Source: Comamonas sp. SCN 65-56 (lineage in GTDB: Bacteria > Pseudomonadota > Gammaproteobacteria > Burkholderiales > Burkholderiaceae_C). From it: DNA of 49,902 nucleotides. The DNA lies in the NCBI RefSeq assembly GCF_001724135.1, contig NZ_MEDS01000015.1, positions 1-49,902 of the forward strand, read 5' to 3'. The translations under genes and the position numbers were made by a program. The number at the start of each line of letters is the position of its first letter. The first letter of the stretch is position 1. The notes under the pieces are model-generated. The model was not told where the DNA came from. It worked only from the letters and a program-made list of their open reading frames with translations, and searched no databases. This document shows, piece after piece, positions 6,670 to 47,361 of this stretch.

Positions 6670-7743
6670 TCAGGCGAGGCTCTTCACATACCAGTCCAGC
6701 GCTTCGTCGAGTCCTGCAGCGACCCGATGCGTGGGCACGTACCCCAGCAGAGCCCGCGCCTTGCTCACATCGGCGAGCGAATGGCGGACGTCGCCTTCAC
6801 GGAAATCCCGGTAGTTCGGACTGACGTCACGCACGCGCGGCGTCGAAGCCGCAAGCCGATCCCGGATCGCAATGAACAATTCGTTCAGCGACAGGCGTTC
6901 GCCGCAGGCAACGTTGAAGACCTCGTGGCTGGGCGTCGAATCCCCCGAAGATTCCGGAAATAGCGCGGCCCGCAGGTTCGCCTGCACCGCATTCGCCACG
7001 TAGCAGAAGTCCCGGCTCGTCTCTCCGTCACCGTTGATGTAGACCGGGTCGCCGCGCAGCATCGCAGCAATCCAGCGCGGAATCACGGCGGCGTAGGCAC
7101 CCGCCGGATCCTGTCGCGGTCCGAACACGTTGAAGTACCGGAGCCCGGCACACCTCATGCCGTAAGTCCTGGCGAACACGTCGGCGTATATCTCGTCGAC
7201 GAGCTTCGTCGCTGCGTAAGGCGAAAGCGGCTTGCCTATGCTCGCCTCGATCTTGGGCAATCCCGGGTGGTCTCCGTAGACCGAGCTCGACGACGCATAG
7301 ACGAATCGCTTCACGCCCGACATTCGCGCTGCGTCCAGCATGTTCACGAAGCCATCGACGTTCGACACGTGGGTCGCAAGCGGCTGGGCGATCGACCGGG
7401 GCACGGAACCGAGTGCCGCCTGATGCAGAACGAAATCGACGCCCGCGCAGGCCTCCTGGCAGCAATGCGAGTCGCGGATGTCGCCTTCGATGAAGCGGTA
7501 GCGCGCCGAATCCGCCTCGCCGACCGCGCTCCGGACATCGTCGACATTGCGTCGGTGGCCGGTCGCGAAGTTGTCGAGCCCGATGACCTGCTGGCCCGAG
7601 CGCAGCAGCGCCTCGACCAGGTTCGAACCGATGAAGCCGGCAGCTCCGGTCACCAACCAGCGATACCGGCCTCCGATCGCCGGCATGCCTCCTTCGGGCG
7701 TCCGGGCCCCCATGTCGCGCGGCGCCATCGACGGGTCACTCAT
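6670..7743 (-). CDS. wbpP: UDP-N-acetylhexosamine(uronate) 4-epimerase, WbpP/TviC type
   Basis: An extended short-chain dehydrogenase/reductase that should interconvert UDP-GlcNAc/UDP-GalNAc or their 6-uronic acids at C4. From memory of P. aeruginosa WbpP and Salmonella TviC the match is close along the whole length: NAD-binding [11 protein letters not shown] from 32, [38 protein letters not shown], catalytic Y176-x3-K180 in [27 protein letters not shown], and [15 protein letters not shown] near the C-terminus. The start at 7743 overlaps the dehydrogenase stop by 4 bases. The N-terminal ~25 residues before RYRWLVTG are extra relative to WbpP, so an internal start (residue 11 or 20) is possible. 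It is translationally coupled to the upstream dehydrogenase. Confidence 0.93.
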
Positions 7744-9020
7744 AGCCGCCACACCCGGTAGCCGCGTCGCTCGAGCGCCATCCGGTCGAACGAGCCCTTG
7801 ACGTCGACGAACACTCCCGAAGCAACCAGTTTTCCAACGAGCCTGTCGAGCGGGAAATCGCGGTAGACCTGGTGCGCCACAGCCGCGACGATGGCGTTGG
7901 CAACCGGCAGGTCGTCCCATTGCGCAAGCTCCACGCCGTATTCGCGCCGCGCCTCGTCGGGATCGGCAACGGGGTCGTGCACCCGCACATCGGCTCCATA
8001 CGAACGCAGTTCGTGGATCACGTCGATGACGCGTGAATTGCGCAGGTCCGGAACGTTCTCCTTGAACGTGAGTCCCAGGACGATGATCGGCGCGCCGTTG
8101 ATCGTGAATCCCTTCCGGATGAGGGCCTTGACCGTCTGCTCGGCGACGAACTTGCCCATGCCGTCGTTGATGCGACGACCGGCGAGGATCACCTGTGGCG
8201 AGTAACCCAGCGTGTCGGCCTTGTAGGTGAGGTAGTACGGATCGACGCCGATGCAGTGCCCGCCGACCAGACCAGGCCGGAACGGCAGGAAGTTCCATTT
8301 GGTGCCGGCGGCCTCCAGCACTTCCAGCGTGTCGATGCCGATCCGCTCGAAAATGATCGAGAGTTCGTTCATCAGGGCAATGTTCAGGTCGCGCTGGGTG
8401 TTCTCGATCACCTTGGCAGCTTCGGCAACCTTGATGGAACTGGCGCGATGGACGCCTGCCGCGACGACCGTCTCGTAGAGCCTTGCGACGCTTTCGAGCG
8501 TCTCCGCATCGTCGCCCGACACCACCTTCGTGATCGTGGCGAGCGTGTGGGCCTTGTCACCGGGATTGATCCGCTCCGGGGAGTATCCGACGTGGAAATC
8601 TTTCTTCCATTTCATCCCCGAATGCGCTTCCAGAACCGGGATGCAGACTTCCTCGGTCGCCCCGGGGTAGACCGTCGACTCGAAGACGACGATCGCGCCC
8701 TTCTTCATGTAGCGCCCGACCGTTTCGCTCGCCCCGATCATCGGACCGAAGTCGGGCATGTGCGCACGATCGATCGGCGTCGGCACGGCTATCACGTGGA
8801 AGTCGGCCTCTGCAATGCCCGCCGGATCGGCGGTCACGACAAGGTGCCGGGCAGCGCGAAACTGCTCCGCAGATACCTCGCCTGTGGCGTCGTGGTGTTT
8901 CTTGATATTCTCGATCTTCTCGGCGGACAGGTCGAAGCCGATGGTCCGATAGTGGCGCCCGAACTCGACTGCCAGTGGCAGTCCGACGTAGCCCAGGCCG
9001 ATTACGGCAACAGTTGTCAT
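7740..9020 (-). CDS. wbpO: UDP-N-acetylhexosamine 6-dehydrogenase, WbpO/TviB type
   Basis: A nucleotide-sugar dehydrogenase that should oxidise UDP-GalNAc or UDP-GlcNAc twice with NAD+ to the 6-uronic acid. The 426 residues show the N-terminal dinucleotide-binding [10 protein letters not shown] (8-17), the central domain with [25 protein letters not shown] and [16 protein letters not shown], and the catalytic cysteine C256 in [13 protein letters not shown]. The C-terminal domain has [15 protein letters not shown]. Residues such as [15 protein letters not shown] place it with the WbpO/TviB group rather than UDP-glucose dehydrogenase. GAGGAAAC precedes the ATG at 9020. With the downstream epimerase it forms a two-gene unit on the strand opposite to the main EPS operon. 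Confidence 0.94.
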
Positions 9021-9112: not shown

Positions 9113-9195
9113 GAACAAGTTGCGGGTTTTGCGCCCGCAGGCGTCATGCGACAGGGATACGCGCCGCCCGATGCGATCGGGTGGCGCGGACGTGC

Positions 9196-9211: not shown

Positions 9212-9368
9212 ATCTCTGCGGATCGTCAATAAATGGTGTCGGAATTCCTGTACATTGACGACCCGATTCGAGACTCTGTCCGCATGCGGTCCGATCCACG
9301 CGCGGCGGTTCCCGTTGTCCGCGAATCGAGGCCTTGACCCTAAACCCGTCTATAGCCGGAGAACAGAC

Positions 9369-17449: not shown

Positions 17450-17464
17450 GAAGGGTCGAGTCTC

Positions 17465-18997: not shown

Positions 18998-19038
18998 GCA
19001 CGGAGACGAGCCACATTCCGGTCAACAGGAGAAATACA

Positions 19039-19293: not shown

Positions 19294-19322
19294 AGGCGCG
19301 CACCGGATCCGGGAAGACCACC

Positions 19323-34425: not shown

Positions 34426-35586
34426 ATGCGCCTGCTGTACCTCATGACAGAACCTTTCGGCGTCGGCGGCGTGCAGTCCGACATCCTGACCCTGACCGAG
34501 GACCTCTCTGCGCGCGGACACGTCGTCTTTGTCGCCACGACGTCGGGGGTCCTGCTCCCGGAGCTGACCGGAAAGGGAGCACGGCACCTCGATATCGACT
34601 TCCACTTCCGGCACGCCGGCGGCTTCGCGCGCGCCGCCCGAGCCCTGCGTGCCGCCGTGCGCGAGCACCACATCGAACTCGTCGCGCCGCAGTCGGTGCG
34701 TTCCACGCTGGTCGCCTACGCCAGCCTGCGTCTGGCTCCGTACGGCTATCGGGTCGCCGCGACCGGCAGGCGCGTGCCCATCGTCACGACGATCCACAAC
34801 ATTCACAATCCGCGACATTTCCGCTATGGCGGAAGCATCCTGCAACGATGTGCCGATTTCGTGATCTTCGAATCGCACTACGAACGCGACCGGCTTCTCG
34901 CCAGCGGCCTTGCCGAGGCGAAGTCGACGGTCATCCACAGCGGCATCGACACCCTGCGCTTCGTGCCGAGGGAGCGAGATCCCGAGCTCGCGGCCCGATA
35001 CGGAATCGATCCGGCGCGTCACAAGGTGTTTGGAATCGTGGCGCGCCTGTCCGAGGAAAAGGGGCACCGCTACCTGCTGCAGGCTTTCGCTCGCGTTGCG
35101 GCGCGCATGCCCGACGCGCGCCTGATGATCGTCGGCGAAGGCCCCCTTCTCGCGCCGACGCAGGCCGACGCCGTCAGGCTCGGCATCGCGGATCGGGTCA
35201 TCTTCACTGGTCTGCAACGAGACATTCCCGCTCACCTGGCCCTCATCGACGTCTTCGTTCTCTCGTCGGTCCGCGAGTCGTTTCCACTGGCAGCACGCGA
35301 AGCCATGGCGGCCGGCAAGGCGGTCATCCTGCCGCGAATCGGCGGATGCCCCGAGGTCGTCGAGGAAGGCGTTACCGGGCTGTTGTTCGAAGCGGCCAAC
35401 GTTCCGGAGCTGGCGGAGCGGATGGAACGGATCATCCAGAGCGACACCCATCTGGCATTCGGCCGTGCCGCGCGCGAGCGCGTCGAAAGCTTGTTCTCGC
35501 GCCGTTCCTGGATCGACGGCGACGAGAGAATCTACCTGCAATGGCACGGAACCGGAGCGGGCGCTGATACCGGAGGACATCGATGA
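34426..35586 (+). CDS. Glycosyltransferase family 4
   Basis: A 386-residue GT-B enzyme: LLYLMTEPFGVGGVQSDILTLTEDL at the N-terminus, VTTIHNIHNPRHFRYGG in the acceptor domain, then HSGIDTLRFVP, GIVARLSEEKGHRYLLQAF, LMIVGEGPLLAP and the donor-site segment SSVRESFPLAAREAMAAGKAVILPRIGGCPEVVEEG. It should add one sugar to the EPS repeat or its primer. It ends with a 4-base overlap into the secreted beta-propeller gene, so a cytoplasmic sugar transfer step and a secreted polymer-acting protein are translationally coupled. Confidence 0.9.
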   Translation: MRLLYLMTEPFGVGGVQSDILTLTEDLSARGHVVFVATTSGVLLPELTGKGARHLDIDFHFRHAGGFARAARALRAAVREHHIELVAPQSVRSTLVAYASLRLAPYGYRVAATGRRVPIVTTIHNIHNPRHFRYGGSILQRCADFVIFESHYERDRLLASGLAEAKSTVIHSGIDTLRFVPRERDPELAARYGIDPARHKVFGIVARLSEEKGHRYLLQAFARVAARMPDARLMIVGEGPLLAPTQADAVRLGIADRVIFTGLQRDIPAHLALIDVFVLSSVRESFPLAAREAMAAGKAVILPRIGGCPEVVEEGVTGLLFEAANVPELAERMERIIQSDTHLAFGRAARERVESLFSRRSWIDGDERIYLQWHGTGAGADTGGHR

Positions 35587-36851
35587 CGACAACGCACAGG
35601 TTCTTCGCATGGTCGGCGTGGTTCATCGCCGTGTCCGCGCTGTCGAGCGCCGCGACGCTTGCAGGCGCGCAACCTGTCCTGGAAGGCTTGCTCGACGGAC
35701 ACGCGGTACGTCCTGCCCCGTCCAGTGCGCCTCCGGGACTGCACGAACCGTTCGTCGATCCGACGTTCGGCACGACGGTGATGCGGATCACCGACCCGTC
35801 CCAGGTGCCCGGCAAGCGGCGCATCCGGCACTACTACTCGAAGGCCAACCCGCTCAACGCCAACGACTCGCTCGCAATCTTCTTCGGCGGCGACGGCAGC
35901 CTGATCCTGTACGACGCCGCTACATGGAAGCCAATCAGGGAACTCGACATCGTCAGTTCCGACCCGGAAATCCAGTGGCATCCGAAGGATCCCGGCGTCT
36001 TCTATTTCCTCGACTTCGCGGGCAATTCGCCGAATGTGCGGGCCATGTACCGCTACGACACGAAATCCGGAAAAAAGACGCTGTTGCGTGATTTCAGCGA
36101 GTACGAGACGGTCCGCGGCAAACTCGAGGGCAACCTCGACCGCGAGGGGCGCTATTACGCGATGGTCGGCAAGAAGGGGGCGAACCTCGAAGCGTTCGTC
36201 TACGACCTGCAGAACGACACGATCCGGCGCAGGCTGCCCGTGACCGGTGCAATGGTCGCCGACTGGATCAGCGTCACGCCGAGCGGGCGCCATGTCGTGA
36301 TGATGGGAAAGGACCGTTCGCGCGTCTTCGATCTCGACATGAACCACCTCCGCGACCTGCCCCTCGGCACCTTCGGGCACGCCGACCTGTGCCTGCGGGC
36401 CGACGGCACCGAGGTCATGGTGTTCGACGGCGCAGATCACCAACTCGACAACAACCGGAACATCAACATGGCCGATCTGCAGACCGGCCGCATCAGCGTG
36501 CTGACACGCATCGGCTGGGGCACGACCCCGCACGTGTCGTGCCGCAACCTGGCAATGCCCGGGTGGGCGCTGATTTCGACGCAGGGGCCTGACCGCAAGT
36601 ACCCGAATCACGACTTCGAGATCTTCTGGATCAAGCTGGACGGGTCTGGACAGGTTCGGCGCGTGGCGCATCATCACAGCAGTCGCGAGAAAGGCGGCTA
36701 TTTTTCCGAGCAGCACGCGGTCACGAATGCGACGGGCACACGAATCATCTTTGCCAGCAACTGGAATGGTGCTATCGACCCCAGCAGCTTCCTCGTGACG
36801 CTTCCGCGATCCCGAGGGCAAGGCACCAGTTCCGCCATCAGGAAGCCGTGA
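35583..36851 (+). CDS. Secreted beta-propeller-like protein, EPS-linked (paralogue D)
   Basis: A 422-residue protein with a signal peptide (AWFIAVSALSSAATLAGAQ). The mature part is made of repeated strand patterns of WD40/TolB-like blades (LILYDAATWKPIRELD, MYRYDTKSGKKTLL, FVYDLQNDTIRR, RVFDLDMNHLRDL). It shares with three minus-strand proteins (40668, 44042, 45840) the signature FVDPTFGTTVMRITD, HVSCRNLAMPGWALIS, and VAHHHSS then SEQHAVTNATGTRIIFASNW near residues 362-395. The HHH and EQH sites could bind metal, as in the propeller-fold oligogalacturonate lyases (PL22), but this is inference. It lacks the repeats of the paralogues. It sits inside the plus-strand operon, overlapping both neighbours by 4 bases. 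Confidence 0.72.
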   Translation: MTTTHRFFAWSAWFIAVSALSSAATLAGAQPVLEGLLDGHAVRPAPSSAPPGLHEPFVDPTFGTTVMRITDPSQVPGKRRIRHYYSKANPLNANDSLAIFFGGDGSLILYDAATWKPIRELDIVSSDPEIQWHPKDPGVFYFLDFAGNSPNVRAMYRYDTKSGKKTLLRDFSEYETVRGKLEGNLDREGRYYAMVGKKGANLEAFVYDLQNDTIRRRLPVTGAMVADWISVTPSGRHVVMMGKDRSRVFDLDMNHLRDLPLGTFGHADLCLRADGTEVMVFDGADHQLDNNRNINMADLQTGRISVLTRIGWGTTPHVSCRNLAMPGWALISTQGPDRKYPNHDFEIFWIKLDGSGQVRRVAHHHSSREKGGYFSEQHAVTNATGTRIIFASNWNGAIDPSSFLVTLPRSRGQGTSSAIRKP

Positions 36852-37609
36852 CGACCTGGCTGGAGATCCTGACGGCTCCGGTCGCCCTCACAGGCTGGGC
36901 GCTGTTGCTGCTTTGCGTGCGTTGGGTCGGCCTGCAGGCCGCCGGGCGCACGCGGTGGCTGCTGATGGCGCTGACCGTTGGCTACTTCCTCGTAGCCGCA
37001 CCGTTCGGTGCCAATCTGGCCGTCGCCTGGCTCGAGTCTCGCGCCGCGCCGGCCGCCGACTGCCTCGCCCCGGGGCCTGACGCGGTCTTCATCGTGCTCG
37101 CCGGTGGAATCACCGGCGCGCCGCGCAGCGAACAGGAATTCTGGAGCCTCAAGGAGGCGAGCGCGCGGCGGACCTTCGAGGCGGTCGCGCTCGCCGAGAA
37201 GCATCCTGGATCCACGATCGTCATGTCCGGAGGCGCCGGAGACACCGTGCGCGAGGCGGATCTGATGCGTGCCCTGGCGACCCGGCTTGGCATCGCTCCG
37301 GCCCGGATCGAGGTCGAGCGGAATTCCACGTCAACCCTCGAGAGCGCGGAAATTCTCGCTCGCCGCAGCGAGCTCTGGATCCGCGGGCAGCCTTTCCTCG
37401 TCACCTCCGCCATGCACATGCCGCGGGCCGTGGGCGCATTCCGCGCGGCCGGCATCCAGGTGTGCGCGCATCCCGTCGACTTCAGATGGGTCCGTCCGGC
37501 ACCCCACGAGGCCTTCATCCCCCAGGTGAGCGCACTCGAAAAGAGCACCCGTGCGATTCATGAAATCGCTGGATTGCTCGCGTACTCGCTTGGAGTCTCG
37601 CCTCGATGA
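36848..37609 (+). CDS. DUF218/YdcF-ElyC family membrane protein
   Basis: A 253-residue protein with two N-terminal hydrophobic helices (LTGWALLLLCVRWVGL and WLLMALTVGYFLVAAPFG) and a C-terminal DUF218 domain: DAVFIVLAGGITG near 78-90, STIVMSGGAGDTVREADLM, RNSTSTLESAEILA, and PFLVTSAMHMPRAVGAFRAAGI. ElyC/SanA relatives affect envelope polysaccharide synthesis and undecaprenyl phosphate use in E. coli, which would suit this locus, though the biochemical role is unknown. The start is GTG at 36848, fixed by its 4-base overlap with the previous stop (GTGA). Confidence 0.88.
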   Translation: MTTWLEILTAPVALTGWALLLLCVRWVGLQAAGRTRWLLMALTVGYFLVAAPFGANLAVAWLESRAAPAADCLAPGPDAVFIVLAGGITGAPRSEQEFWSLKEASARRTFEAVALAEKHPGSTIVMSGGAGDTVREADLMRALATRLGIAPARIEVERNSTSTLESAEILARRSELWIRGQPFLVTSAMHMPRAVGAFRAAGIQVCAHPVDFRWVRPAPHEAFIPQVSALEKSTRAIHEIAGLLAYSLGVSPR

Positions 37610-38820
37610 ACCACCCGCAACGACCGGGGATCGAAGTGCGCAGGCTCTCGATGGCGGAGATCGATCAGCCCTTCGTGAGCGAGTGGCTTGCACTGGAAGC
37701 CCGGGCGATCGAGCCGAACGCCTACATGTCGCCGCACTTCGTGCTTCCGGCTCTGAGGCACCTTCGACCCGCCACCTTGCCGATCTTCGTCGCGATCTAC
37801 GGCAATCCAGGCACGGGCACACGCTTGCTCGGTCTCGGGATCTTCACTGCCGAGGGCCCCACCCGCCGTTTCCCGCTTCCGCACCTTCGAAGCTACCGGT
37901 GCGTGCATTCGTACGTCACCGGCCCGCTCATCGATCCCGAGGCCGCCGAATCCGCGGTCGACGCCTTGTTCGATTTCGTCGACAAGCCGGGTTCACCCTG
38001 GCATGGCCTGGTCTTCGACAACCGCAATGCGGAAGGACCGCTTGCCGCAGCACTCGACGCCGCTGCAAGTCGTCGCGGCATCACATGGGTCGGGCTGGAG
38101 ACTTTCTCGCAGGCGATCCTCTATCCGGCACGGATCGACGACCAGTATCTCGATCGCGTCATGAGCCGCAAGCGCCAGAAGAAGCTGCAGCGTGCGTACC
38201 GGCAGCTGGCGGAAACCGGGGCAGTGAGCTGGCACGTGATCGATGGCCGCGAGGTGTCCGCCGAAACAGTCGAGACTTTCCTCGAGCTGGAGAACAGCGG
38301 ATGGAAGAAGGAGAATGGCAGTTCGCTGCGCTGCCGCCCCGCCCACGAGGCGTTCTTCACGGAAATGTGCACCGGGTTTGCACAGGATGGCCGGGCACTG
38401 TTCACGGAGCTTCGCGTGGACGGGCGCGCGATCGCATCGACGAGCAATTTCCTGTCGGGCGCGGCCGCCTTCGCGTTCAAGCTCGGCTGGGATCCGGACT
38501 TCGCGAAGTACGCTCCCGGAGTCCTCAACGAGTACCTGCTCGTTCGACACGCCCGTGAGCGCCTGGGTTCGCTGTCCTACATCGACAGCGGCACGGACGA
38601 AGGCTCGTTCATCGAGATGCTCTGGGCCGACAAGACGCCGATCACTACGGGGTTCTACGCCACGAGCCGGTTGGCGAGGATCCTGATCCCCTTCTGGATG
38701 CGCTTGCGTGGACTATGGCGGCGATTTCGCCGGCGGCCGACCGCCTCCTCGCGCGCTGCCGCATCCGGATCCGACGAAACGGCGCCTGGCGCAGTCGACC
38801 GTGAGGGGCCCGACGCGTGA
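37606..38820 (+). CDS. CelD/FemAB-like GNAT acyltransferase
   Basis: A 404-residue double-GNAT protein related to the one at 24331. It has IEPNAYMSPHFVLPALRHL, RKRQKKLQRAYRQLAETG, LENSGWKKENGSSLRCRP, VDGRAIASTSNFLSGAAAFAFKLGWDPDFAKYAPGVLNEYLL and YIDSGTDEGSFIEMLWADKTPI. It should acylate a sugar or peptide-like amine using CoA or ACP donors. The C-terminal ~60 residues are basic (MRLRGLWRRFRRRP) and may touch the membrane. The start overlaps the DUF218 stop by 4 bases and its stop overlaps the next start, making a three-gene acyltransferase run. Confidence 0.85.
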   Translation: MNHPQRPGIEVRRLSMAEIDQPFVSEWLALEARAIEPNAYMSPHFVLPALRHLRPATLPIFVAIYGNPGTGTRLLGLGIFTAEGPTRRFPLPHLRSYRCVHSYVTGPLIDPEAAESAVDALFDFVDKPGSPWHGLVFDNRNAEGPLAAALDAAASRRGITWVGLETFSQAILYPARIDDQYLDRVMSRKRQKKLQRAYRQLAETGAVSWHVIDGREVSAETVETFLELENSGWKKENGSSLRCRPAHEAFFTEMCTGFAQDGRALFTELRVDGRAIASTSNFLSGAAAFAFKLGWDPDFAKYAPGVLNEYLLVRHARERLGSLSYIDSGTDEGSFIEMLWADKTPITTGFYATSRLARILIPFWMRLRGLWRRFRRRPTASSRAAASGSDETAPGAVDREGPDA

Positions 38821-39983
38821 ACGGCCTGGCGCGCATCGCGCGGCCGCGCGCGAGTCCCCGGCTGCACTGTACGGTGCTCACCACCGTCGACCAGCTCGCG
38901 GCGTTCGCACCCCAGTGGCAGGCGCTCGCGCGGACGGACACGACGCATTGCAGCCTTTTCGCGACCTACGACTACGTCTTGCTCGCGTGGCGGCATCTGC
39001 ACTCAGCCGACGACCGCCTGTTCGTGATCGTGGTATCCGACGGCACCGCGCCGGTCGGCGTCGTGCCCCTCGCGATCTGTCCGTCTCGACGGTGGGGAAT
39101 GAAGGTGCGCGTGATGCGCTTCATCGCGCAGCAGGAAGGCGACCGCCCCGGAATCGTGAGCGCCGGCGAGCCTGCGTCGATCTGGCTCGCTGCGTTCGAG
39201 GCGCTCCTCGCCCACCGGGCGCATTGGGACCTGCTGCAACTGGCCGAACTCGACCAGGACGACTGGCCGGTCACCAACCTGGGCGGATTCGGGCGCGGCA
39301 TCTTCGGGCGCGTCGAAGCCGACACTTCCGTCGCCAGTATCGACCTTCGTAGCGCCTGGGCAGACTACCTCGCATCGCGCTCGCGCAACACGCGAAAGAA
39401 CTACCGGAGAAAGCTGGCCCAACTCGACCGACGGCACCCCGAATGGCGGATCGAGACGGCCACCGAGCCTGCCGCAGTCGAACGCGCCTTGAATCGCTAC
39501 ATCGCGATCGAGCAACAGAGCTGGAAGGCGTCGAGTCCGGTCGGCGTCGCCAAGGATGCCCGGCATGCCTCGTTCTACCGCGACCTGTTGGGCCTGCTGG
39601 CCACCCGGGGAGAGGCACGGATATCGATCCTGACCAGCGGGTCGACCGACATGGCGGGCTCGATCCAGATGATCTGGCGCGACACCGTCCTGGACCGGCA
39701 CATTGCCCACGCCAGGCAGTACGACGCGGACTCGGTCGGCTCGGTACTCGGTGCGGAGGTGATTCGGCAGCATTTCGGATCGGGACGAACCACGCTCGAC
39801 CTGATGGGCCTTGCGGTCGGCCACCCGAAACGCCTGCAAGTGGAGGAATGGTCCACGACGACCCGCATCACCCGTCGGGTCACCCTGTTCAATCTACGAT
39901 CACGCGTCGCACCGATTGCCTGCGCCGTTGCAGCCCGGCGGGCAATCCGCGGCACGCCGTTGGCATGGAGCGGGACCCCATGA
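38817..39983 (+). CDS. CelD/FemAB-like GNAT acyltransferase
   Basis: A 388-residue protein of the same fold as its neighbour: CSLFATYDYVLLAWRHLHS, GVVPLAICPSRRWGMKVRVMRF, LASRSRNTRKNYRRKLAQLDRR, YIAIEQQSWKASSPVGV and a C-terminal DLMGLAVGHPKRLQVEEW. The GTG start at 38817 is set by the GTGA overlap with the upstream stop. The two tandem copies have diverged strongly, so they probably act on different positions or acyl donors. Confidence 0.84.
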   Translation: MNGLARIARPRASPRLHCTVLTTVDQLAAFAPQWQALARTDTTHCSLFATYDYVLLAWRHLHSADDRLFVIVVSDGTAPVGVVPLAICPSRRWGMKVRVMRFIAQQEGDRPGIVSAGEPASIWLAAFEALLAHRAHWDLLQLAELDQDDWPVTNLGGFGRGIFGRVEADTSVASIDLRSAWADYLASRSRNTRKNYRRKLAQLDRRHPEWRIETATEPAAVERALNRYIAIEQQSWKASSPVGVAKDARHASFYRDLLGLLATRGEARISILTSGSTDMAGSIQMIWRDTVLDRHIAHARQYDADSVGSVLGAEVIRQHFGSGRTTLDLMGLAVGHPKRLQVEEWSTTTRITRRVTLFNLRSRVAPIACAVAARRAIRGTPLAWSGTP

Positions 39984-40621
39984 GCCGTTCCGCAGCCCGC
40001 TCCCTGTCGGCACGCATTGCACGGCGCCTCGAGCAGGCAGCGCGCCTGCTCGTCGAGAAGATCGACAACGACCTTTTCGTCCTCGATGGGTTACCGCGCG
40101 ACGTACCGGAACGTTGGGCCGGGCTGCAGGTTCGCCGCATCGTCGACAGCGATCGACCCCGGCTTCGCGAGATGATCCTGAGAGAGAACAGCGACGCCGC
40201 ATCGACCCTGAACCGCCTGGACGACGCCTGGGCAAGGGGATACCTCGGCTATCTGGCGCAGAATCACGAAGACATCCTCGCCTACGGCTGGATCTGCACG
40301 GCGGAGATGCCGCACCCCCAGGTCAGCGTCTTCGACCTGGATCTCGGCTCCGGCGACGTTCTGGCCTTCGACCTCTTCGTGGGACGCTCGTACAGAGGCC
40401 AGAACCTGCCTGTCGCAGTCCTGGTCAAAATGCACGCGGCGTTGCGTACCGAGGGTTACCGGCATATCTATGGGCTGGTCGACATCAACAACCGCCGATC
40501 GGCGCTCGTTCACCTTCGGGCCGGATACCGCAAGCTCGGAAGGCGTCACGCGTGGGCGATCGGCTCGTTGTTGCTGGCCAGCAGCTCAGGCATTCATCGC
40601 TACGACAAGCGCTGGATATGA
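39980..40621 (+). CDS. GNAT-family N-acetyltransferase
   Basis: A 213-residue protein, last gene of the plus-strand EPS run. The GNAT core is in the C-terminal half: VLAFDLFVGRSYRGQNLPVAVLVKMHAAL (CoA pyrophosphate-binding region, Q/RxxGx-like) and IYGLVDINNRRSALVHLRAGYRKLGRR. The N-terminal ~60 residues form amphipathic helices. It overlaps the upstream acyltransferase by 4 bases; an in-frame ATG at 39965 would add five residues. It is convergent with the minus-strand propeller gene 46 bases away. Confidence 0.8.
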   Translation: MSRSAARSLSARIARRLEQAARLLVEKIDNDLFVLDGLPRDVPERWAGLQVRRIVDSDRPRLREMILRENSDAASTLNRLDDAWARGYLGYLAQNHEDILAYGWICTAEMPHPQVSVFDLDLGSGDVLAFDLFVGRSYRGQNLPVAVLVKMHAALRTEGYRHIYGLVDINNRRSALVHLRAGYRKLGRRHAWAIGSLLLASSSGIHRYDKRWI

Positions 40622-40667
40622 GCCTCGACGGCGGGCCCGCTTCTCCGCACGCCGAAGCCCGCATCGT

Positions 40668-42470
40668 TCAAGGCCGGTAGGCAGGCAACTCGACCACGTA
40701 GGCATCCACCGAGCTCCCGCCGCCCCAGTCGCTGCCGAAGAGCAGGCGTGTGCCGCGCGGGCTGATCACCACGTGCGGCTCGGCCCAGTAGCCGCGCGGG
40801 CCCGACTTGCCGAACGAGCGGTGGTGCCCCACCCGGCACGCCTTGCCCCCCGGATTGGTGTTGGCCAGCACGAGTTCCTGGTTCAGCACCGTGCTGCCGG
40901 ACGTATTGCCGACGATCGACAGCGCCACCCATCCGGGGTTCTTCAGAGCCACCGCGGACACGTGCGTGCCGCCAGGCGGGTACGGATAGCCCGTCGCCGG
41001 TCCGACAATGACGCGCGGAGCGCTCGCGCCGGTCATGTCGCTGGTCACCAGCGAGCCGACGTAGCTGCCGTCGAACGATACGGTGTTGTGCGTGTCTGCG
41101 CCACCCGCCAGCCTGCCCAGCGAAGCATGCTCCTCGCCGTTGACCGGCAGGTTACGCAGGAAGTTCAGGTCGGTGTCACGCACCGCCGCGGCGCCGCCGC
41201 CGAGGAAGGCCAGCTTGCCGGTCGGTGACGCGATCGGCGCAAGGTCTCCTGCTTCGCTCACGCGCCGGCTCTCGGCGCCGGTGCTGATCCGGTAGGTGAA
41301 GATCTGCCCGTCGCAGCGCAGGCCGATCAGGTCCGAGTCCCATGATGTGTACATCGGGTCGACGCCACCCGTCACGCTGCCGCTGCACGAGAACGTCTTC
41401 AGGGCAGTCTTGGTTCCGCTGGAAACCTTGTAGCGGATCAGTCGATCGTTCCCGTCCACGTACAGCAGCGAGTCCGGGTCGGTGGCGTGCCAGTAGAACT
41501 GCTCCAGGTCGGGCGGATCGATATCGAGCGCACGGATGTACTGATACGTCTTGCCGTCGTAGAGATGGTGGCCGGCTCCGCCCTTCACGCTGCCGCCGGT
41601 GTGATACAGGACGAGATAGCTCTCGTCGGCGTTCCAGGCGGGCACCGTCGAGTACGCCGGCTTGACCACGTTCGTGCTGCCTGCATCCGAAATGCGGCGG
41701 ATGGTCGTGCCGAACTGGGGATCGACGACGGCCTGCCCGACCGCGGGCTTGGCCAGCGCGCCTTTGGGGCGATTCGCCTTGTCGGTGACGAGCCCCGCGC
41801 AGAGGTCCGTCGACGGAGCAGCGGCCACGGTCTGCGTGAACGTCGCTCCCACCGTCCGGGCCGCTGTCATGCTCAGCGCACAGGTACTGGTGCCGCTGCA
41901 GGCACCGCTCCAGCCCGAGAACTGATAGCCGTCCGCCGGGGTCGCCGACAGCGTCACGCTCGTGCCGGAAGCATACGACTCGCTGCAGTCGCTTCCGCAG
42001 CTGATCCCTGCCGGCGAGGATGAGACGGCCCCGGAACCCGTCCGATTGACCTGCAACAGGTAGGTCACCGGTGCCGGGGCGGGGGCGGGGGCGGGCGCCG
42101 GTGCGGGCGAGGTGGCCGACTTCGCTGGCACGAAGGTTGCGCTCACCATCGCGTCCGAGTTCATCGTGACATTGCAGGTCGTGGCGGTTCCGTAGCAGGC
42201 GCCGCCCCAGCCGGCGAAGACGTGGTCCTGCGCAGCCGTCGCCGAGAGGGTGAGCGTCCTTCCTGCCAGGTAGCGTGCCTTGCAGTCGGTCCCGCAATCG
42301 ATCTTGTTCCCGCTGGTCACCTTGCCGCCGCCGGAGTTCGTCACCGTGAGCCGGTATCGCGTCCCCTTGGTCGTCGCATCGCTGGCGGCATGCGCTCCCG
42401 GGAGCGCAAGCGCCAACGAAACGAAGAAGCCTGCGGCCAATGAGAGCCGGACGAGTCGGTGCTGTGTCAT
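40668..42470 (-). CDS. Secreted beta-propeller protein with two InlB-like repeats (paralogue A)
   Basis: A 600-residue exported protein. Signal peptide 1-29 (LAAGFFVSLALALPGAHA). Two divergent InlB B-repeat-like domains follow, about 38-113 and 136-211, each with GxG(K/A)V(T/S)S, IxCGxDC, Y.(A/S)G and FxGWxGAC motifs and conserved cysteines, joined by an Ala-Pro linker near 121-134. Residues ~222-600 form a propeller shared with three other proteins here: LCAGLVTDK, VVDPQFGTTIRRISDAG, VPAWNADESYLVLYHTGG, TSWDSDLIGLRC, VALKNPGWVALSIVG, then HH at 549-550 and EPH at 564-566. The start at 42470 has AGGATC upstream and is preferred to 42599. It probably binds or cleaves the EPS outside the cell (inference). 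Confidence 0.75.
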   Translation of the reverse strand: MTQHRLVRLSLAAGFFVSLALALPGAHAASDATTKGTRYRLTVTNSGGGKVTSGNKIDCGTDCKARYLAGRTLTLSATAAQDHVFAGWGGACYGTATTCNVTMNSDAMVSATFVPAKSATSPAPAPAPAPAPAPVTYLLQVNRTGSGAVSSSPAGISCGSDCSESYASGTSVTLSATPADGYQFSGWSGACSGTSTCALSMTAARTVGATFTQTVAAAPSTDLCAGLVTDKANRPKGALAKPAVGQAVVDPQFGTTIRRISDAGSTNVVKPAYSTVPAWNADESYLVLYHTGGSVKGGAGHHLYDGKTYQYIRALDIDPPDLEQFYWHATDPDSLLYVDGNDRLIRYKVSSGTKTALKTFSCSGSVTGGVDPMYTSWDSDLIGLRCDGQIFTYRISTGAESRRVSEAGDLAPIASPTGKLAFLGGGAAAVRDTDLNFLRNLPVNGEEHASLGRLAGGADTHNTVSFDGSYVGSLVTSDMTGASAPRVIVGPATGYPYPPGGTHVSAVALKNPGWVALSIVGNTSGSTVLNQELVLANTNPGGKACRVGHHRSFGKSGPRGYWAEPHVVISPRGTRLLFGSDWGGGSSVDAYVVELPAYRP

Positions 42471-42929
42471 GTTCGATCCTCGAAGGGTGGCGGATGAGCA
42501 GCGTCGCTGACGGCCAGCGTCGACTGCCTGGCGGGCAGAGAGAACCAGCAGCTCACCCGCATGTGTTGCCGAGCGTAATGTCGATACCGGGCAGACCACG
42601 GATCGATTCCTGTAGACGGCTTCAGCAACGACTTCCTTGTCGACTTAGTGTTCCTCGACACCCTCGAGCGCGCTCTGGCGGTCGCATGGCGAGGCGAAGG
42701 CACGGTTCGGCGTGCGCTTCAAGCGATTTATCCGCATTCCGTTGTCTTCGGCTGCTGGCCGCAGACCGACGGTCGATCGGGACGATCCAGCGGGACCCGC
42801 CGTGCCTTCGTCCGGTCGCCTCGCAGGCCTGCGCGTCGCCCCTCTTGCCGTATCGCAGGCGCAGGATCGATCGAACGGAGGACTCGCGCGACCTCGGTTC
42901 GGTCAGCGAGGATGCACGCTCTCAGCGGC
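42471..42929. other. Intergenic region, 459 bases, no gene recognised
   Basis: This lies between the start of propeller paralogue A and the end of the methyltransferase gene, both on the minus strand, so it should contain the promoter of the propeller gene. No frame shows a recognisable protein. I see no strong promoter, terminator or repeat. Confidence 0.5.
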
Positions 42930-43868
42930 TTATCCGGCGGCGAGTGGCGCCTGCGCCACGCAGAGGATCAGGTCTCCGAGGCGGTTCACCACCGGCACGC
43001 GCTCGAGGCGACGGGAGAGTTCGACGGTCGGCAGGCCGATCCGTTTCGCGAAAGGTACCCTGATCTGGATGGGCCACGCCCGCACCGACGCGAAGTACGG
43101 TCGCACCTCGTTCACGCACTCGCGCAGCGCGAAGTTGTAGCGGTAGATGTGACCCTGGGCATAGCGGCCGGACTTCGACTCGCCGGAAAGCCACTGCATG
43201 ATGCCCTGGTGATGAGCGCTGAACACGAAGCGACCATCGCTGCGAAGCGCGTCGGCAGCGACTCGGTACATCGCCTGGCGATGCTCCCTGGTGGGCAGGT
43301 TCGAGGTCAGGGTCGAGTAGACGACGTCGAAGCGGCGACTCGGCACGCGCAGTGTCGTCACGTCGGCATGCACGAGTCCGACGTTGCCCGCTCCGCGGAG
43401 TCGGCGATCGAGCACGGCCAGCGATTCCAGCGACAGGTCGATCGCCAGGAGCGATGCGCATCGCGGCGCGAGTCGGGTCGTGTAGCGACCGTCGCCGCAC
43501 CCGAGTTCCAGAATGGCGTCGCCGGGATGGATGTCGAGTGCTGCGAGCGCAGACAGAATCTCCATCAACTGGTACTCGGAGTTCCAGCGGGGGTCGTCTG
43601 CGTCTCCAGTCGTCGAACGGGCTCGCGCGTCACGCAGTTGCTGTTCGTGCCTGCTCTCGTCGTGCAGCGCAAGGTCCCCCTCTCCCGCGCCGGACAGCAC
43701 GATGCCTGCCGACACGTTGGTCGAATCCCCGCACGACGTGCAGCAGAGTCTTCCTCGCCGCACCCCGAGCTCGTTGGCGGTCAACTCGGCGCCCACGGCG
43801 ATAGCGAGCGCGCCGCCGCACTGTCTGCACTGAATGGACGCCACCAGACTGCACGGAAAGGCACCCAT
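42930..43868 (-). CDS. Class I SAM-dependent methyltransferase with N-terminal zinc ribbon
   Basis: A 312-residue protein with two CxxC pairs at the N-terminus (CRQCGG near 14 and CTSCGD near 42), likely a zinc ribbon like those in small-molecule methyltransferases. The Rossmann methyltransferase core follows with motif I AILELGCGDGRYTTRLAP, motif II LLAIDLSLESLAVL and the FDVVYSTLTSNLP region. GGAG precedes the ATG at 43868, which lies inside a longer open frame whose upstream part is only the antisense shadow of the neighbour. It sits between two propeller genes and may methylate an EPS sugar; the substrate is unknown. Confidence 0.85.
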   Translation of the reverse strand: MGAFPCSLVASIQCRQCGGALAIAVGAELTANELGVRRGRLCCTSCGDSTNVSAGIVLSGAGEGDLALHDESRHEQQLRDARARSTTGDADDPRWNSEYQLMEILSALAALDIHPGDAILELGCGDGRYTTRLAPRCASLLAIDLSLESLAVLDRRLRGAGNVGLVHADVTTLRVPSRRFDVVYSTLTSNLPTREHRQAMYRVAADALRSDGRFVFSAHHQGIMQWLSGESKSGRYAQGHIYRYNFALRECVNEVRPYFASVRAWPIQIRVPFAKRIGLPTVELSRRLERVPVVNRLGDLILCVAQAPLAAG

Positions 43869-44041
43869 GGGTCGAACTCCGCGGAGACCGGCCGATGCGC
43901 CTGCGGCCGTCAGAGAGCGGTCGATGTCCCGAAAAATACTCTCGATCGAGGACGTGATCCAGTCAGGGCTGCCGTGGCGGCTCACGCAAACCGCCGGGAC
44001 GGGGGAACGGCCGGAATGCGGCACGCCCCCGGAGTACCGCG

Positions 44042-45763
44042 CTACGGCTGATAGCTCGGCAGTTCGACCACGTAGGCATCGACCGAACTGCCGCCGCCCC
44101 AGTCGCTTCCGAACAGCAGGCGGGTGCCGCTCGGGCTGATCACGACGTGCGGTTCCGCCCAATAGCCGCGCGGCCCTGCCTTGCCATACGACCGATGGTG
44201 CGCAACCCGGCATACCTGCCCGCCGGGGTTGGTGTTCGCCAGCACGATCTCCTGGTTCAGCGTCGCCTTGCCGTCGGTGTTGCCCACGATCGACACCGCG
44301 ACCCAGCCGGGATTCTTCAGCGAAACGGCCGACACGTGCGTGCTGCCCGGCGGGTATGGATACCCGGTCGACGGCCCCACGATCACGCGCGGCGCCGACG
44401 CACCGGTCATGTCGCTGGTCACGAGCGAACCGACGTAGCTCCCGTCGAACGAAACCGTATTGTGGGTGTCGACGCCGCTCGCCAGCCGGCCAAGCGATGC
44501 GTGCTCCTCGCCCACGACCGCCAGCGTGCGCAGGATGTTCAGGTCCAGATCCCTCACCTGGGCATTGGCGGCCGCGTAGAACGCGAGGGTGCCGCTCGGA
44601 GCAGCGATCGGCGCCAGCCCATTGGATTCGCTCACGCGCCGGTACTCGGTGTTGGTGCTCACCCGGTAGGTGAACATCTGGCTCCCGCAGCGCAAGCCGA
44701 TCAGGTCCGAGTCCCATGAGGTGTACATCGGATCGGCGCCGCCGGAGACGCTGCACGAAAAGGTCTTCAACGTCGTCTTTGTGCCGGTGACGACGTTGTA
44801 CTGAACCAGACGAGTGCCCGAATCGATGTACAGCAGCAGGTTCGGGTTGGTCCCGTGCCAGTAGAACTGCTCGAGATCGGGCGGATCGATGTCCAGCGCA
44901 CGGATGTACTGGTAGGTCTTGCCGTTGTACAGGTGGTGCCCGGCGCCGCCCCGCACCGAACCCCCCGTGTGGTACAGGATCAGATAGCTCTCGTCCGCAT
45001 TCCAGGCCGGAATCGTCGAGTAGGCCGGCTTGATCACGTTGGTGCCGCCGGCATCGGTGAGGCGGCGAACCGTCGTCCCGAACGCCGGATCGGTCACCGC
45101 CTGGCCCACGCCCGGCCTGGCCAGCGAGCCCATGGCGTGGCTGACCTTGTCCGTCACCAGACCCTCGCACAGGTTGGCACTGGCACTTGCCTGGTTCGCG
45201 GTGAAGCGCGCACTCACCGAGCGCGCCGCCGTCATGCTCACCGTGCAGCCCGCGGTGCCCGAGCACGCGCCGCTCCATCCGGCAAAGCTGTAACCGCTCG
45301 CCGCCGCAGCCATCAGGCTCACACTGGTGCCCGACGCATAGTTCTCGCTGCAGTCCGCCCCGCAACTGATCCCGAGCGGCGACGACGTCACCGTGCCCGA
45401 ACCCGTCACCCCGACCGACAGCGTGTAGCTTGCGGTCGGCGCGGGTGTGGGTGCCGGTGTGGGTGCGGGTGTGGGTGTGGGTGTGGGTGTGGGTGTGGGT
45501 GTGGGTACGGGTGTGGGTACGGGTGTGGGTGCGGGTGTGGGTGCGGGCGTCGGCTCAGGCGCGGGTGTCGGCGTGGGTTTTGGGGTCACATTCGTGGCTG
45601 GCGCATCCACGGACGCCAGGCTCGGCGCAGCGCTCGAATCGGCGCCGTTGTCGGCGGCATTCCCGCACCCGCTCAGCAACGCGAGACTCACGCAGGCCGA
45701 CACCGCCCAGGCGAATCGTCCAGACCGGGGTTTGTCCTGCAAGACAAGAAGCATGGATTTCAT
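44042..45763 (-). CDS. Secreted beta-propeller lipoprotein with Pro-Thr linker and one InlB-like repeat (paralogue B)
   Basis: A 573-residue protein. The signal peptide ends in lipobox LLSGC (Cys33), so it should be a lipoprotein. Residues ~60-110 are an almost pure Pro-Thr/Ala/Val repeat, followed by one InlB-like repeat at ~112-188 (GSGTVTSSPLGISCGADCSE, FAGWSGAC). The propeller at ~198-573 is close to paralogue A, with VTDPAFGTTVRRLTDAGG, IPAWNADESYLILYHTGG, HH at 522-523 and EPH at 537-539. In-frame starts also occur at 45778, 45823 and 45754; 45763 is chosen because CAGGG precedes it and the signal then aligns with that of paralogue C. It is probably anchored at the outer membrane with the propeller held out on the linker. 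Confidence 0.75.
   Translation of the reverse strand: MKSMLLVLQDKPRSGRFAWAVSACVSLALLSGCGNAADNGADSSAAPSLASVDAPATNVTPKPTPTPAPEPTPAPTPAPTPVPTPVPTPTPTPTPTPTPAPTPAPTPAPTASYTLSVGVTGSGTVTSSPLGISCGADCSENYASGTSVSLMAAAASGYSFAGWSGACSGTAGCTVSMTAARSVSARFTANQASASANLCEGLVTDKVSHAMGSLARPGVGQAVTDPAFGTTVRRLTDAGGTNVIKPAYSTIPAWNADESYLILYHTGGSVRGGAGHHLYNGKTYQYIRALDIDPPDLEQFYWHGTNPNLLLYIDSGTRLVQYNVVTGTKTTLKTFSCSVSGGADPMYTSWDSDLIGLRCGSQMFTYRVSTNTEYRRVSESNGLAPIAAPSGTLAFYAAANAQVRDLDLNILRTLAVVGEEHASLGRLASGVDTHNTVSFDGSYVGSLVTSDMTGASAPRVIVGPSTGYPYPPGSTHVSAVSLKNPGWVAVSIVGNTDGKATLNQEIVLANTNPGGQVCRVAHHRSYGKAGPRGYWAEPHVVISPSGTRLLFGSDWGGGSSVDAYVVELPSYQP
45441..45548. repeat. GGGTGT/GGGTGC hexanucleotide repeat inside propeller gene B
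   Basis: About 108 bases of near-perfect 6-base repeats, GGGTGT with GGGTGC and GGGTAC variants on the plus strand (CCCACA-type on the coding strand), encoding the Pro-Thr/Ala/Val linker. Unit length is a multiple of three, so slippage would change linker length without breaking the frame. The plus strand has many GGG runs spaced by three bases, ideal for G-quadruplex formation. Confidence 0.93.
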
Positions 45764-45839
45764 TGCAGCCCTGCTCATGAAGTTCGTCCGAATATCCGCG
45801 TCGCCCCGTCGGCATGCAGGCAATGGCCTGTCTCACTGC

Positions 45840-47228
45840 CTATGGCCGATAGGCTGGAAGCTCCACCACATAGGTGTCCGCGGTCTTCCCGCCACCCCAG
45901 TCACTCCCGAAGATCATCCGCGTCCCGCTCGGGCTGATGACCACGTGCGGCTCGGCGAAGTAACCGATCGTTCCACAATTGCCGCCGCAGGAACGGTGAT
46001 GCGCCACGCGACACACCGCCCCGCCCGGGTTCGTATCGGCCAGGATGATCTCGCTCTCGAGAACGCCCTGACCCAGCTTCCCTCCGGAGAGATCACCGAT
46101 CACCGACACGGCCACCCAACCCGGATTCTTGTGCGCCACCGCCGAAATGTGCGTCCCGGACGGCGGATACGGATACCCCTGGCTCTGGCCAATGATCACG
46201 CGCCACGATCCGTCCCACATGTCGTGCGCCACCAGCGTCCCGGAGTTGTCCTTTCCAGCCCGCGCGGCAACCGGACCGGAATCGAACTGCACGCTGTAGA
46301 AGATGTCGTGCCCGCTCGCAAGGCGGCCAAGCGACCCGTGCTCGCCCGAGTTGATCACGTCCAGCGTCAGCAACTCGTTCATGTTCGCATCGCGAACAGT
46401 CCCGATCCGATCGCTGTCGTTCAGGAAGTAGCGCGTACCGCTGGGCGCAGCCTGCGGTGCGTTCTGCGCCCCGCCCTCGCCCGTCGTCTTCGTGAGCACG
46501 GTGCCCACGACGCCGGCATCGATGTCGTAGCTGAAGATCTTGCCTCCGCACGTCAGGCCGATCTTGCGACCCTGCCACGACATGTACATCGGATCGGTCC
46601 CGCCGGTCAGGTCGACACCGCTGCCGCATGAGGTCGGAGGCGTCGAAAAATCGCGCAGCATCGTCTTCGCGCGCGTCTCCACGTTGTATCGGTACAGCCG
46701 ACGCTCGACGATGTTCGCGTAATAAAGAACCTGCGGGTCGGTCGTGTCCCAGTAAACCTGCTCGTCATCGGCCGGACTGATGTCATCGAGCGTGCGAAGG
46801 TACTGGTAGGTCTTGCCGTCGTACAGCTCGTGCCAACCCCCCGGTCGAAGCAGAATCAGCCGGGTCTCGTCGGCGTTCCAGGCCTGGATCGTCGAGTACA
46901 TCGGCTTGATGAACTCGAACCCCTTCGCCGCAGCGTCGCTGATGCGCCGAATCGTCGTGCCAAACTGCGGATCCACGAACGAACCACCCACCGCAGGCTT
47001 GGCAACATCCGTCATCGCATGCGCCAACTTGTCCGTCACCAGACCCTCGCACAGGTTGGCACTGGACGAACCGACCGACGCGACGCCTGGTCCACTGGCG
47101 GAATCCACACTGCCGTTGCCGCCTCCGCAGGCACCAAGGACAATCGCCAGAGCGGCGACGAACAGGCCTCGGCGGGGAGGCGACCCGGACCCGACAGCGG
47201 AAACCAGACGGAACGTAGCGCGCTGCAT
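45840..47228 (-). CDS. Secreted beta-propeller lipoprotein (paralogue C)
   Basis: A 462-residue lipoprotein: signal MQRATFRLVSAV through lipobox LGAC (Cys34), then GGGNGSVDSASG as a short linker with no InlB-like repeat. The propeller region starts at NLCEGLVTDKLAHAM and shows FVDPQFGTTIRRISDAA, IQAWNADETRLILLRPGG, MYMSWQGRKIGLTCGG, HISAVAHKNPGWVAVSVIGD, HH at 410-411, EPH at 426-428 and GSDWGGG. Compared with A and B, it lacks the GGAGHH insertion and has an extra loop near residue 415 (CGGNCGTIG). Other starts lie upstream (47285, 47330); 47228 gives the best lipoprotein signal, although its ribosome-binding site is weak. Confidence 0.74.
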   Translation of the reverse strand: MQRATFRLVSAVGSGSPPRRGLFVAALAIVLGACGGGNGSVDSASGPGVASVGSSSANLCEGLVTDKLAHAMTDVAKPAVGGSFVDPQFGTTIRRISDAAAKGFEFIKPMYSTIQAWNADETRLILLRPGGWHELYDGKTYQYLRTLDDISPADDEQVYWDTTDPQVLYYANIVERRLYRYNVETRAKTMLRDFSTPPTSCGSGVDLTGGTDPMYMSWQGRKIGLTCGGKIFSYDIDAGVVGTVLTKTTGEGGAQNAPQAAPSGTRYFLNDSDRIGTVRDANMNELLTLDVINSGEHGSLGRLASGHDIFYSVQFDSGPVAARAGKDNSGTLVAHDMWDGSWRVIIGQSQGYPYPPSGTHISAVAHKNPGWVAVSVIGDLSGGKLGQGVLESEIILADTNPGGAVCRVAHHRSCGGNCGTIGYFAEPHVVISPSGTRMIFGSDWGGGKTADTYVVELPAYRP

Positions 47229-47361
47229 AATGAGAAACACCTTGCGGTCGGTCGATTGAAGGGAAGTCCGATCCGGCATCTCCATTGTCAAGGAATTCTT
47301 CCGGGTCAAGCCATCAGAAAGCATGCGCAATGACGGACGGAGCCTGAGGCGTCACCAGCGG

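Follow-up and report, generated by a model that had tools for sequence, protein, structure and literature searches.

The 49,902-nucleotide stretch of Comamonas sp. SCN 65-56 analysed here (the window) encodes four apparently secreted proteins of an unnamed beta-propeller family, kin to the PL22 oligogalacturonate lyases. Since this family is distantly related to a sugar-acid-cleaving enzyme, the four proteins may cut back or remodel the polysaccharide coat of the cell that makes them. The best reading of the sequences and structural models, to which we give about an even chance, is that they are secreted, metal-dependent lyases acting on the cell's own uronic or amino-uronic EPS.

Results

Propeller A (35583..36851, forward strand; 422 aa) lies inside the EPS operon, with its core at 35676-36848 and the site motif GYFSEQH. 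Propellers B (40668..42599; core 40671-41813), C (44042..45823; core 44045-45190) and D (45840..47330; core 45843-47066) are on the reverse strand and measure 643, 593 and 496 aa as ORFs. B has a likely ATG start at 42470; the D frame opens at 47330, and the ATG at 47228, which is the end coordinate of the original prediction, is its likely true start. Core identities in BLASTP were 76% (B/C), 53% (B/D) and 51% (C/D). The A core shares 29-31% identity with those of B, C and D, at E values (1e-36 to 1e-40) well outside what chance would give. The N-terminal motif of the core reads FVDPTFGTTVMRITD in A, VVDPQFGTTIRRISD in B, VTDPAFGTTVRRLTD in C and FVDPQFGTTIRRISD in D, and PGW and HH(R/H)S ... 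E(P/Q)H ... GTRxxFxS(D/N)W are present in all four window proteins. The identities and the motifs, each of which we verified in A, B, C and D, bear out the original prediction of four exported paralogues with one common propeller core. It also held that two of them are lipoproteins, and inspection of the N-termini agrees: A and B appear to carry ordinary signal peptides, and C and D putative lipoboxes (LLSGC and VLGAC, respectively). The N-terminal spacers are unlike one another, as had been proposed. B has two PF18998 (InlB B-repeat-like) domains, C has one together with a Pro/Thr-rich spacer, and A and D have no Pfam domain. A profile search of the host assembly (95% complete) at E<=1 returned the four window cores and, beyond these, only the N-terminal stretch of B.

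The placement of one paralogue inside a biosynthetic operon was confirmed. A overlaps by 4 bases both the upstream GT4-type glycosyltransferase gene (34426..35586, forward) and the downstream ElyC-like gene (36848..37609, forward; match below cut-off), and the two gene pairs that follow also have 4-base overlaps. TIGR03007 and TIGR03015 matched over cut-off in the window, which places the propeller genes in an XrtA-type EPS cluster. Uronate synthesis had been assigned to this locus, and we found a WbpP/WbgU-like UDP-sugar C4-epimerase gene (6673..7659, reverse, start approximate) beside a gene for a UDP-sugar 6-dehydrogenase (7740..9020, reverse) with HexNAc-uronate dehydrogenases among its listed relatives of solved structure. 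This pair is apparently an amino-uronate synthesis module. No match to GH88 or KduI was found in the host genome at E<=0.001. This speaks against unsaturated uronates as a nutrient and is in keeping with a role in processing the cell's own polymer, but the absence would be no less expected of a protein other than a lyase.

Linkage to EPS genes recurs among relatives. It was seen in 9 of the 11 loci that the phylum sample yielded from other propeller-positive genomes, a count that overstates independence because two alphaproteobacterial families contribute about seven of the EPS-linked loci. It was also seen in Nitrospira (L017 and L020) and on Chelatococcus pTAD1, where the propeller (WP_245280503.1, annotated hypothetical) lies in an XrtA-type EPS cluster. 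Poly_export genes directly adjoin the propeller in L073 and L079. The EPS label rests on one FemAB-like neighbour in L019, on a sugar transferase in L078, and in L075 on an edge fragment together with a sequence judged Poly_export-like by visual inspection. Neighbour genes came from a crude gene caller that overlooked the L075 propeller gene and whose start positions may be off. The neighbour set excludes genes shorter than 120 aa, those more than 6 kb away and those of L012, which nearly duplicates L008. Pfam tallies cover 118 of 120 neighbours (51 + 67; the last two of L025 are out) and show the first 25 families. Around L006-L012, L015 and L018, which are close relatives of B, C and D and in several cases lie on short contigs, BLAST matches to the window EPS genes were propellers only. 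A link to exosortase was rejected, as TIGR02602 occurs in 1 of 12 propeller-positive genomes (the window's own) versus 78 of 386 others in the same sample. Added modules were PF18998 in L018, LRR in L006 and L015, SLH in L023 and an fn3-type module in L019.

A phage propeller protein carries an Ig-like module. Neither the phage core nor A2 matched further relatives in viral contigs, and no other phage record was found. Plasmid spread was also rejected, with no plasmid match to D and one for an alphaproteobacterial member.

The original prediction knew of no described family with this signature, and this is true of Pfam and NCBIfam, where profile searches gave no match over cut-off to the four window cores. 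No description of such a propeller family was found in the open-licence literature. For wider comparison we used 42 cores, the remainder of 60 once duplicates were removed; the L025 propeller, split across two ORFs, is outside this set. Against Pfam and NCBIfam the 42 cores gave weak generic propeller and stray matches, with one core matching NF011567 (E 4.1e-6). The PL22 model (PF14583) matched none of the four window proteins at E<=10 and one of the 42 cores (E 0.084). The TolB model (TIGR02800) matched none of the four at E<=1 and 3 of the 42, the best (E 0.0046) being below cut-off.

The predicted fold of the core is a beta-propeller. AF2 models reached a mean pLDDT of 91.3 (pTM 0.92) for the D core and 85.3 for the A core, from alignments that contained 27 and 22 of the 42 cores, as sequences were taken only from the window and related loci. 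With both models, the first three Foldseek ranks among 350,542 chains were 3pe7 and two chains of 3c5m, both PL22 structures, although the superpositions were loose (rmsd 7.3-8.5 for D and 4.9-5.4 for A). The matches listed were all propeller proteins, judged by titles, and PL24, PL25 and PL42 were absent among the 50 listed for the D and A models. When the 42-core profile was searched against PDB sequences, 3pe7_A was again first (E 1.2e-7), with an S-layer propeller not far behind (4.7e-7) and RACK1 propellers also matched; the best-matching stretch was N-terminal rather than the His block. The same search with a 4-row alignment returned noise, and the 42-row profile was needed. In hhalign, the PL22 comparison gave Prob 98.0, E 2.2e-13 and a score of 102.5 over 331 columns, and reversed-profile controls stayed at Prob <=1.6. 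For PL22, 8 of 11 matches were aligned, the other three being a partial one, one under cut-off and one interrupted by an internal stop; for TolB, 9 of 10 loci entered the alignment.

These similarities could be those of any propeller, with no special kinship to PL22. In favor of this, generic and WD40 propellers come within one to two orders of magnitude of PL22 in Foldseek E, the PDB profile reaches S-layer and RACK1 propellers, and TolB, an envelope propeller like the window proteins and encoded on contig C1 as a separate gene of this genome, gave Prob 95.6, E 1.2e-8 and a score of 68.4 in hhalign. However, PL22 ranked first in both Foldseek searches and in the PDB profile search, and its alignment runs end to end, in register, with two His matching, whereas TolB aligned over only 144 columns and out of register. 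We consider a generic resemblance very improbable. Profile searching and structure prediction, the course proposed with the original prediction, thus yielded no Pfam family over cut-off and PL22 at the top for both models, and remote homology of the window propellers to PL22 is borne out.

The alignment with PL22 places a set of residues in correspondence. D His331 (codon 46338..46340, reverse) aligns with PL22 H242, which we take to be the catalytic base, and D His394 (codon 46149..46151, reverse) aligns with H287; each is kept in 40 of the 42 cores, as is Y145, the counterpart of PL22 Y37. The segment Tyr457-Phe-Ala-Glu460-Pro-His462 (45945..45962, reverse) aligns with Q350...H353-P-H355, so that Gln-His-His becomes Tyr-Glu-His. 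E460 is kept in 29 cores, and H462 and the full H/H/Y/E/H set in 28. The PL22 Mn2+ ligands, presumably H287, Q350, H353 and H355, are therefore not fully matched: His stands at H287 and H355, Tyr at Q350 and Glu at H353. In the D model, H331, H394 and H462 each lie at, or no more than two residues before, the start of a short strand.

Two cores, L013_7167 and L014_7599, have lost Y145, H331, H394, W405, Y457, E460 and H462 together and still hold D120, G124, N152, D154, W194, S251 and W478. Both are long branches in a core tree built by a quick method. Clustering of the site residues in the fold is suggested by their alignment with PL22, by where they lie relative to strands and by their joint loss. 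The HH(R/H)S pair, on which the original comparison with PL22 drew, is largely kept in both site-dead copies. The PL22 resemblance stood as remote homology, and this pair fell outside the co-lost site.

Another 11 of the 42 cores keep H331 and H394 and have E460 and H462 replaced. Five of these are in EPS-labelled loci, and so the full site is not needed for EPS linkage. A non-catalytic EPS-binding propeller (a lectin, matrix anchor or export aid), with a PL22-like scaffold whose site holds a sugar or metal without chemistry, would account for these 11 cores and the two without the whole site, whose ORFs are open and some of which lie in EPS loci. The surface-type modules that accompany propellers (PF18998, LRR, SLH, fn3-type and Ig-like) and the adjoining Poly_export genes are also in keeping with binding. 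Conservation of H331 and of the full set at the levels found, however, exceeds the apparent need of generic sugar binding, and we regard this alternative as possible but rather doubtful.

Several residues invariant in 8 of 8 PL22 sequences, among them H192, H207, E208, R217, E243 and R349, are not kept in the cores, so substrate or mechanism may differ. Because the PL22 residues lost are on the substrate side, the chemistry could have changed to that of another carbohydrate- or ester-active enzyme with a different use of the His/Glu site. This is unlikely, as no such family stood above PL22 in Foldseek (D and A) or in the PDB profile search.

Discussion

We conclude that A-D belong beside PL22 and not within it. 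The cores appear to share the propeller fold with PL22 in the same blade register, and H242, H287, H355, Tyr37 and the N-terminal DxxxGxxxxR block of PL22 have counterparts in them. On the other hand, the Pfam model fails, H353 and Q350 are exchanged, R217, H192, H207 and R349 have no conserved counterparts, and the proteins are apparently exported, in contrast to PL22, which is a cytoplasmic enzyme. PL22 serves pectin use, whereas this family is found at EPS loci.

For the lyase reading, we infer that a divalent metal would be held at the opening of the central channel by H394, H462, E460 and perhaps Y457. This metal would grip a uronic-acid residue of the cell's own EPS by its carboxylate. 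With H331 abstracting the C5 proton, the chain would be cleaved by beta-elimination. A, encoded in the EPS operon, might process or clear polymer in the periplasm, and B, C and D, two of them putative lipoproteins, might trim it at the surface.

Epimerisation and beta-elimination have their first chemical step in common. A polymer-level uronate C5-epimerase, in which H331 and a partner would remove and return the C5 proton, would leave the chain unbroken, and the operon would thereby tailor its EPS. The position of A among biosynthetic genes and the lack of GH88 and KduI matches suit such an enzyme. Nevertheless, we know of no propeller-fold epimerase, and lyases were the best matches in the Foldseek and PDB profile searches; we therefore hold an epimerase to be improbable.

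VexL is a lyase that is encoded with its polymer and acts on an N-acetylgalactosaminuronate polymer, and the folds of VexL and AlgL differ from that of the propeller family. Both set a precedent for EPS or capsule loci that encode a lyase, AlgL being encoded with the polymer it cuts (PMC8829089). Propeller lyases are also found in PL24, PL25 and PL42 (PMC8377490; see also PMC10951650). According to PMC8377490, these lyases use His on the anterior face, and the enzyme described there has an Arg neutraliser, a His or Tyr base and a catalytic site without metal. The Arg neutraliser and metal-free site are unlike the metal site proposed for the window family.

The wider picture is more tentative. 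The family may be a widespread, unnamed group of secreted propeller enzymes whose two-His-one-Glu metal site, descended from that of PL22, serves to cut or otherwise tailor the amino-uronic EPS of the producing cell itself. Its genes may have undergone repeated duplication within individual loci, in two cases giving a site-dead partner, and a jumbo phage may have acquired a member that possibly acts as a tail depolymerase.

To our knowledge, how XrtA-type and similar loci trim, clear or release finished EPS is mostly unknown. The recurrent exported PL22-like component described here is a candidate processing enzyme for these steps. The family is also a candidate for a new propeller-lyase lineage with a changed metal site, in which the site-dead copies would serve as natural controls.

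Putatively secreted propeller proteins at the EPS locus

ORFs were found for all four proteins of the original prediction, A at 35583-36851 on the plus strand and B, C and D on the minus strand within 40668-47330. The propeller part common to them (the core) aligns over about 400 residues. Core identity is 76% for B/C, 51% for C/D and 53% for B/D, and the A core shares 29-31% identity with the other three (E 1e-36 to 1e-40). Every motif from which the family had been proposed was located in these cores. The proposed export of all four, two as lipoproteins, agrees with the N-termini, in which inspection indicated putative signal peptides in A and B and putative lipoboxes in C and D. The N-terminal parts differ as described, with two PF18998 domains upstream of the core in B and one in C. 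Protein A does lie in an operon with 4-base overlaps: its gene overlaps an upstream GT4-type gene and a downstream ElyC-like gene by four bases each, and the same overlap is seen in the two gene pairs after the A/ElyC-like pair. A profile search over the assembly, which is 95% complete, yielded no fifth core copy.

The locus belongs to the XrtA-associated type: TIGR03007 and TIGR03015 score over cut-off, and below it there are matches to XrtA tyrosine kinase, amidotransferase, acyl-CoA ligase, hydrolase 2 and O-glycosylation ligase. The single exosortase match of the genome (TIGR02602, G000:C1:30512-31213) is on another contig, distant from this locus. Three FemAB-like acetyltransferase-fold genes (PF13480) are present on the plus strand (24331-25464, 37606-38820 and 38817-39983), the latter two side by side in the operon that holds A. 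A SAM-dependent methyltransferase gene (PF13649, 42930-43742), likewise on the minus strand, separates B from C. Asparagine-synthase-like, AMP-ligase and NadE-like genes (15476-20354, plus strand) recur in EPS loci of relatives, all three in L080 and the ligase and NadE-like genes in L076 and L079.

Relationship to oligogalacturonate lyases

As had been supposed, no described family covers these proteins as far as Pfam and NCBIfam go: the A-D cores had no match in either. The non-duplicate set of 42 cores, from the window and from relatives, gave weak generic propeller matches and strays, and one of the 42 matched PF14583, the oligogalacturonate lyases (PL22), at E 0.084. The suggested likeness to PL22 was borne out, as remote homology, by predicted structure. 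AlphaFold2 models of the D core (pLDDT 91.3, pTM 0.92) and A core (85.3, 0.88) were both confident, and among 350,542 PDB chains Foldseek ranked 3pe7 and two 3c5m chains, all PL22, first to third for each model. For 3pe7, E was 1.8e-12 (D) and 1.9e-13 (A); TM-scores were 0.63-0.68 for 3pe7 and 0.60-0.65 for 3c5m, and superposition on the PL22 structures left a high rmsd (7.3-8.5 with the D model and 4.9-5.4 with the A model). WD40 propellers came next, from E 2.6e-11 and 3.2e-11 (D and A).

Against PDB sequences, the 42-core profile matched 3pe7_A best (E 1.2e-7, the best stretch being profile positions 26-144 in the N-terminal part), then 1l0q (4.7e-7) and 3c5m_A (1.1e-4). With hhalign, the 42 cores and eight PF14583 proteins aligned end to end and in register over 331 columns (Prob 98.0, E 2.2e-13, score 102.5), whereas the control propeller TolB aligned over 144 columns only and out of register (Prob 95.6, score 68.4); reversed profiles gave Prob <=1.6. 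The lead of PL22 over generic propellers is small in every search, yet the ranking repeats. The family is a relative of PL22 and not a member, and its kinship to PL22 is very probably closer than to propellers at large.

The candidate site and its loss

By hhalign, D residues H331, H394, Y457, E460 and H462 pair with PL22 H242, H287, Q350, H353 and H355, and H445, Y145 and R129 with H338, Y37 and R25. Abbott and colleagues reportedly found in 2010 that Mn2+ in PL22 is coordinated by one Gln and three His residues and that a His serves as base; we take the ligands to be H287, Q350, H353 and H355, and the base H242. Manganese is named in the PDB title of 3pe7. Compared with these four ligands, the family keeps two as His, while one is replaced by Glu and one by Tyr. 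The same residue is conserved in family and PL22 at 21 of 335 aligned positions (thresholds 60% and 75%), whereas several residues that are invariant in eight PL22 sequences (H192, H207, E208, R217, E243 and R349 among them) are not conserved in the family. PF14583 itself also shows loss of the ligand set, since its divergent protein L055 carries Ala, Glu and Asn at positions 350, 353 and 355. In the D model, H331 and H462 are placed two residues before a short strand and H394 at a strand start; on our reading these would be inner strands at the channel mouth.

The full set H331, H394, Y457, E460 and H462 is present in 28/42 cores. H331 and H394 are retained with E460 and H462 replaced in 11, and the L018 core has Gln in place of H462. 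Two cores have jointly lost Y145, H331, H394, W405, Y457, E460 and H462 and retain D120, G124, N152, D154, W194, S251 and W478; R129 is additionally gone in the L014 copy, and W405 also differs in three further cores. This co-loss suggests that the lost residues serve one function. The HH pair named in the original prediction falls outside the lost set, since H444 is kept in both joint-loss cores and H445 in one. The two cores may reflect one event because the tree places them together (SH-aLRT 96), both with long branches. Both are first members of tandem pairs in Acidimicrobiales records (L013 7167-10497, L014 7599-10444); the second copies are intact, an arrangement like that of an enzyme with a dead partner.

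The main rival explanation is a role in binding only, which gains plausibility from cores that have naturally lost part of the site and from the fusion of propellers to surface modules; we regard it as rather unlikely.

Distribution and gene neighbours

Relatives were found in 12/398 genomes of the phylum sample, the window's own included, and at 20 loci in the contig database (genome_contigs), under titles including Chloroflexi, Gammaproteobacteria, Myxococcales, Nitrospira, Acidimicrobiales and Blastocatellia. One is on a MAG contig titled Klebsiella pneumoniae (L010, CAMAPQ010000084.1), an unexpected host; that assembly is possibly mislabelled or mixed. The remaining positive genomes contributed 11 loci, of which 9 have EPS-type genes (BLAST against the window at E<=1e-4, or Pfam). 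These include genes for a sugar transferase and an XrtA-type ligase as well as NadE-like and asparagine-synthase-like genes; by the same searches none was found at L070 and L074. A sugar epimerase/dehydratase gene is directly upstream of the propeller in L077, and Poly_export genes directly adjoin it in L073 and L079. Neighbours are GT4 and asnB-like in Nitrospira (L017, L020), FemAB-like in L019 and asnB- and YdcF-like in L025, where the propeller is apparently split (ORFs 7872-8942 and 8988-9272). Glycosyltransferase families came top in the Pfam tally of the second neighbour set (6/67), and none was among the 25 families that the tally of the first set lists.

Plasmid pTAD1 of Chelatococcus daeguensis carries a relative annotated as hypothetical. 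It is flanked on one side by a group that includes sugar transferase, aminotransferase and nucleotidyltransferase genes; to its other side lie a FemAB-XrtA gene and genes for XrtA deacetylase, glycosyltransferase, O-antigen ligase, tyrosine kinase and flippase. BLAST with the window EPS genes revealed no EPS link for close relatives of B, C and D. Exosortase did not track the family (1/12 positive genomes versus 78/386 others). Multiple copies per locus recur, with four cores in genome G154 and two each at L013, L014, L017 and L019. A 1017-residue protein of G154 (L071 9573-12623) has two cores and is flanked by single-core genes in an EPS-type locus.

The jumbo phage LucasX of Xanthomonas has a relative of 1172 residues (L026 4933-8448), with a coiled-coil-like N-terminus (by eye), a propeller at about 340-766 with the full site, and an Ig-like domain. 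One gene separates its gene from a preceding one whose annotation is GTA host-specificity protein. In BFVD the D model has its best match (E 5.1e-26) in an unnamed entry, which is taken as this protein because it has the same length. The excerpted text of the phage paper (PMC9009655) does not discuss it; as a guess, it could be a tail fibre or tail depolymerase.

Possible substrate and function

The four solved relatives listed for the window sugar dehydrogenase include UDP-ManNAcA and NDP-GalNAcA dehydrogenases, and the gene beside it encodes an epimerase nearest WbpP and WbgU. Judged from these nearest structures, the pair would fit UDP-GalNAcA synthesis; GalNAcA is galacturono-configured, as is the PL22 substrate. 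Use of lyase products as food in the usual way is unlikely, because GH88 and KduI had no match in the window's genome at E<=0.001. The role that we favour, with about even confidence, is that of a secreted metal-dependent lyase that would trim the producer's own EPS.
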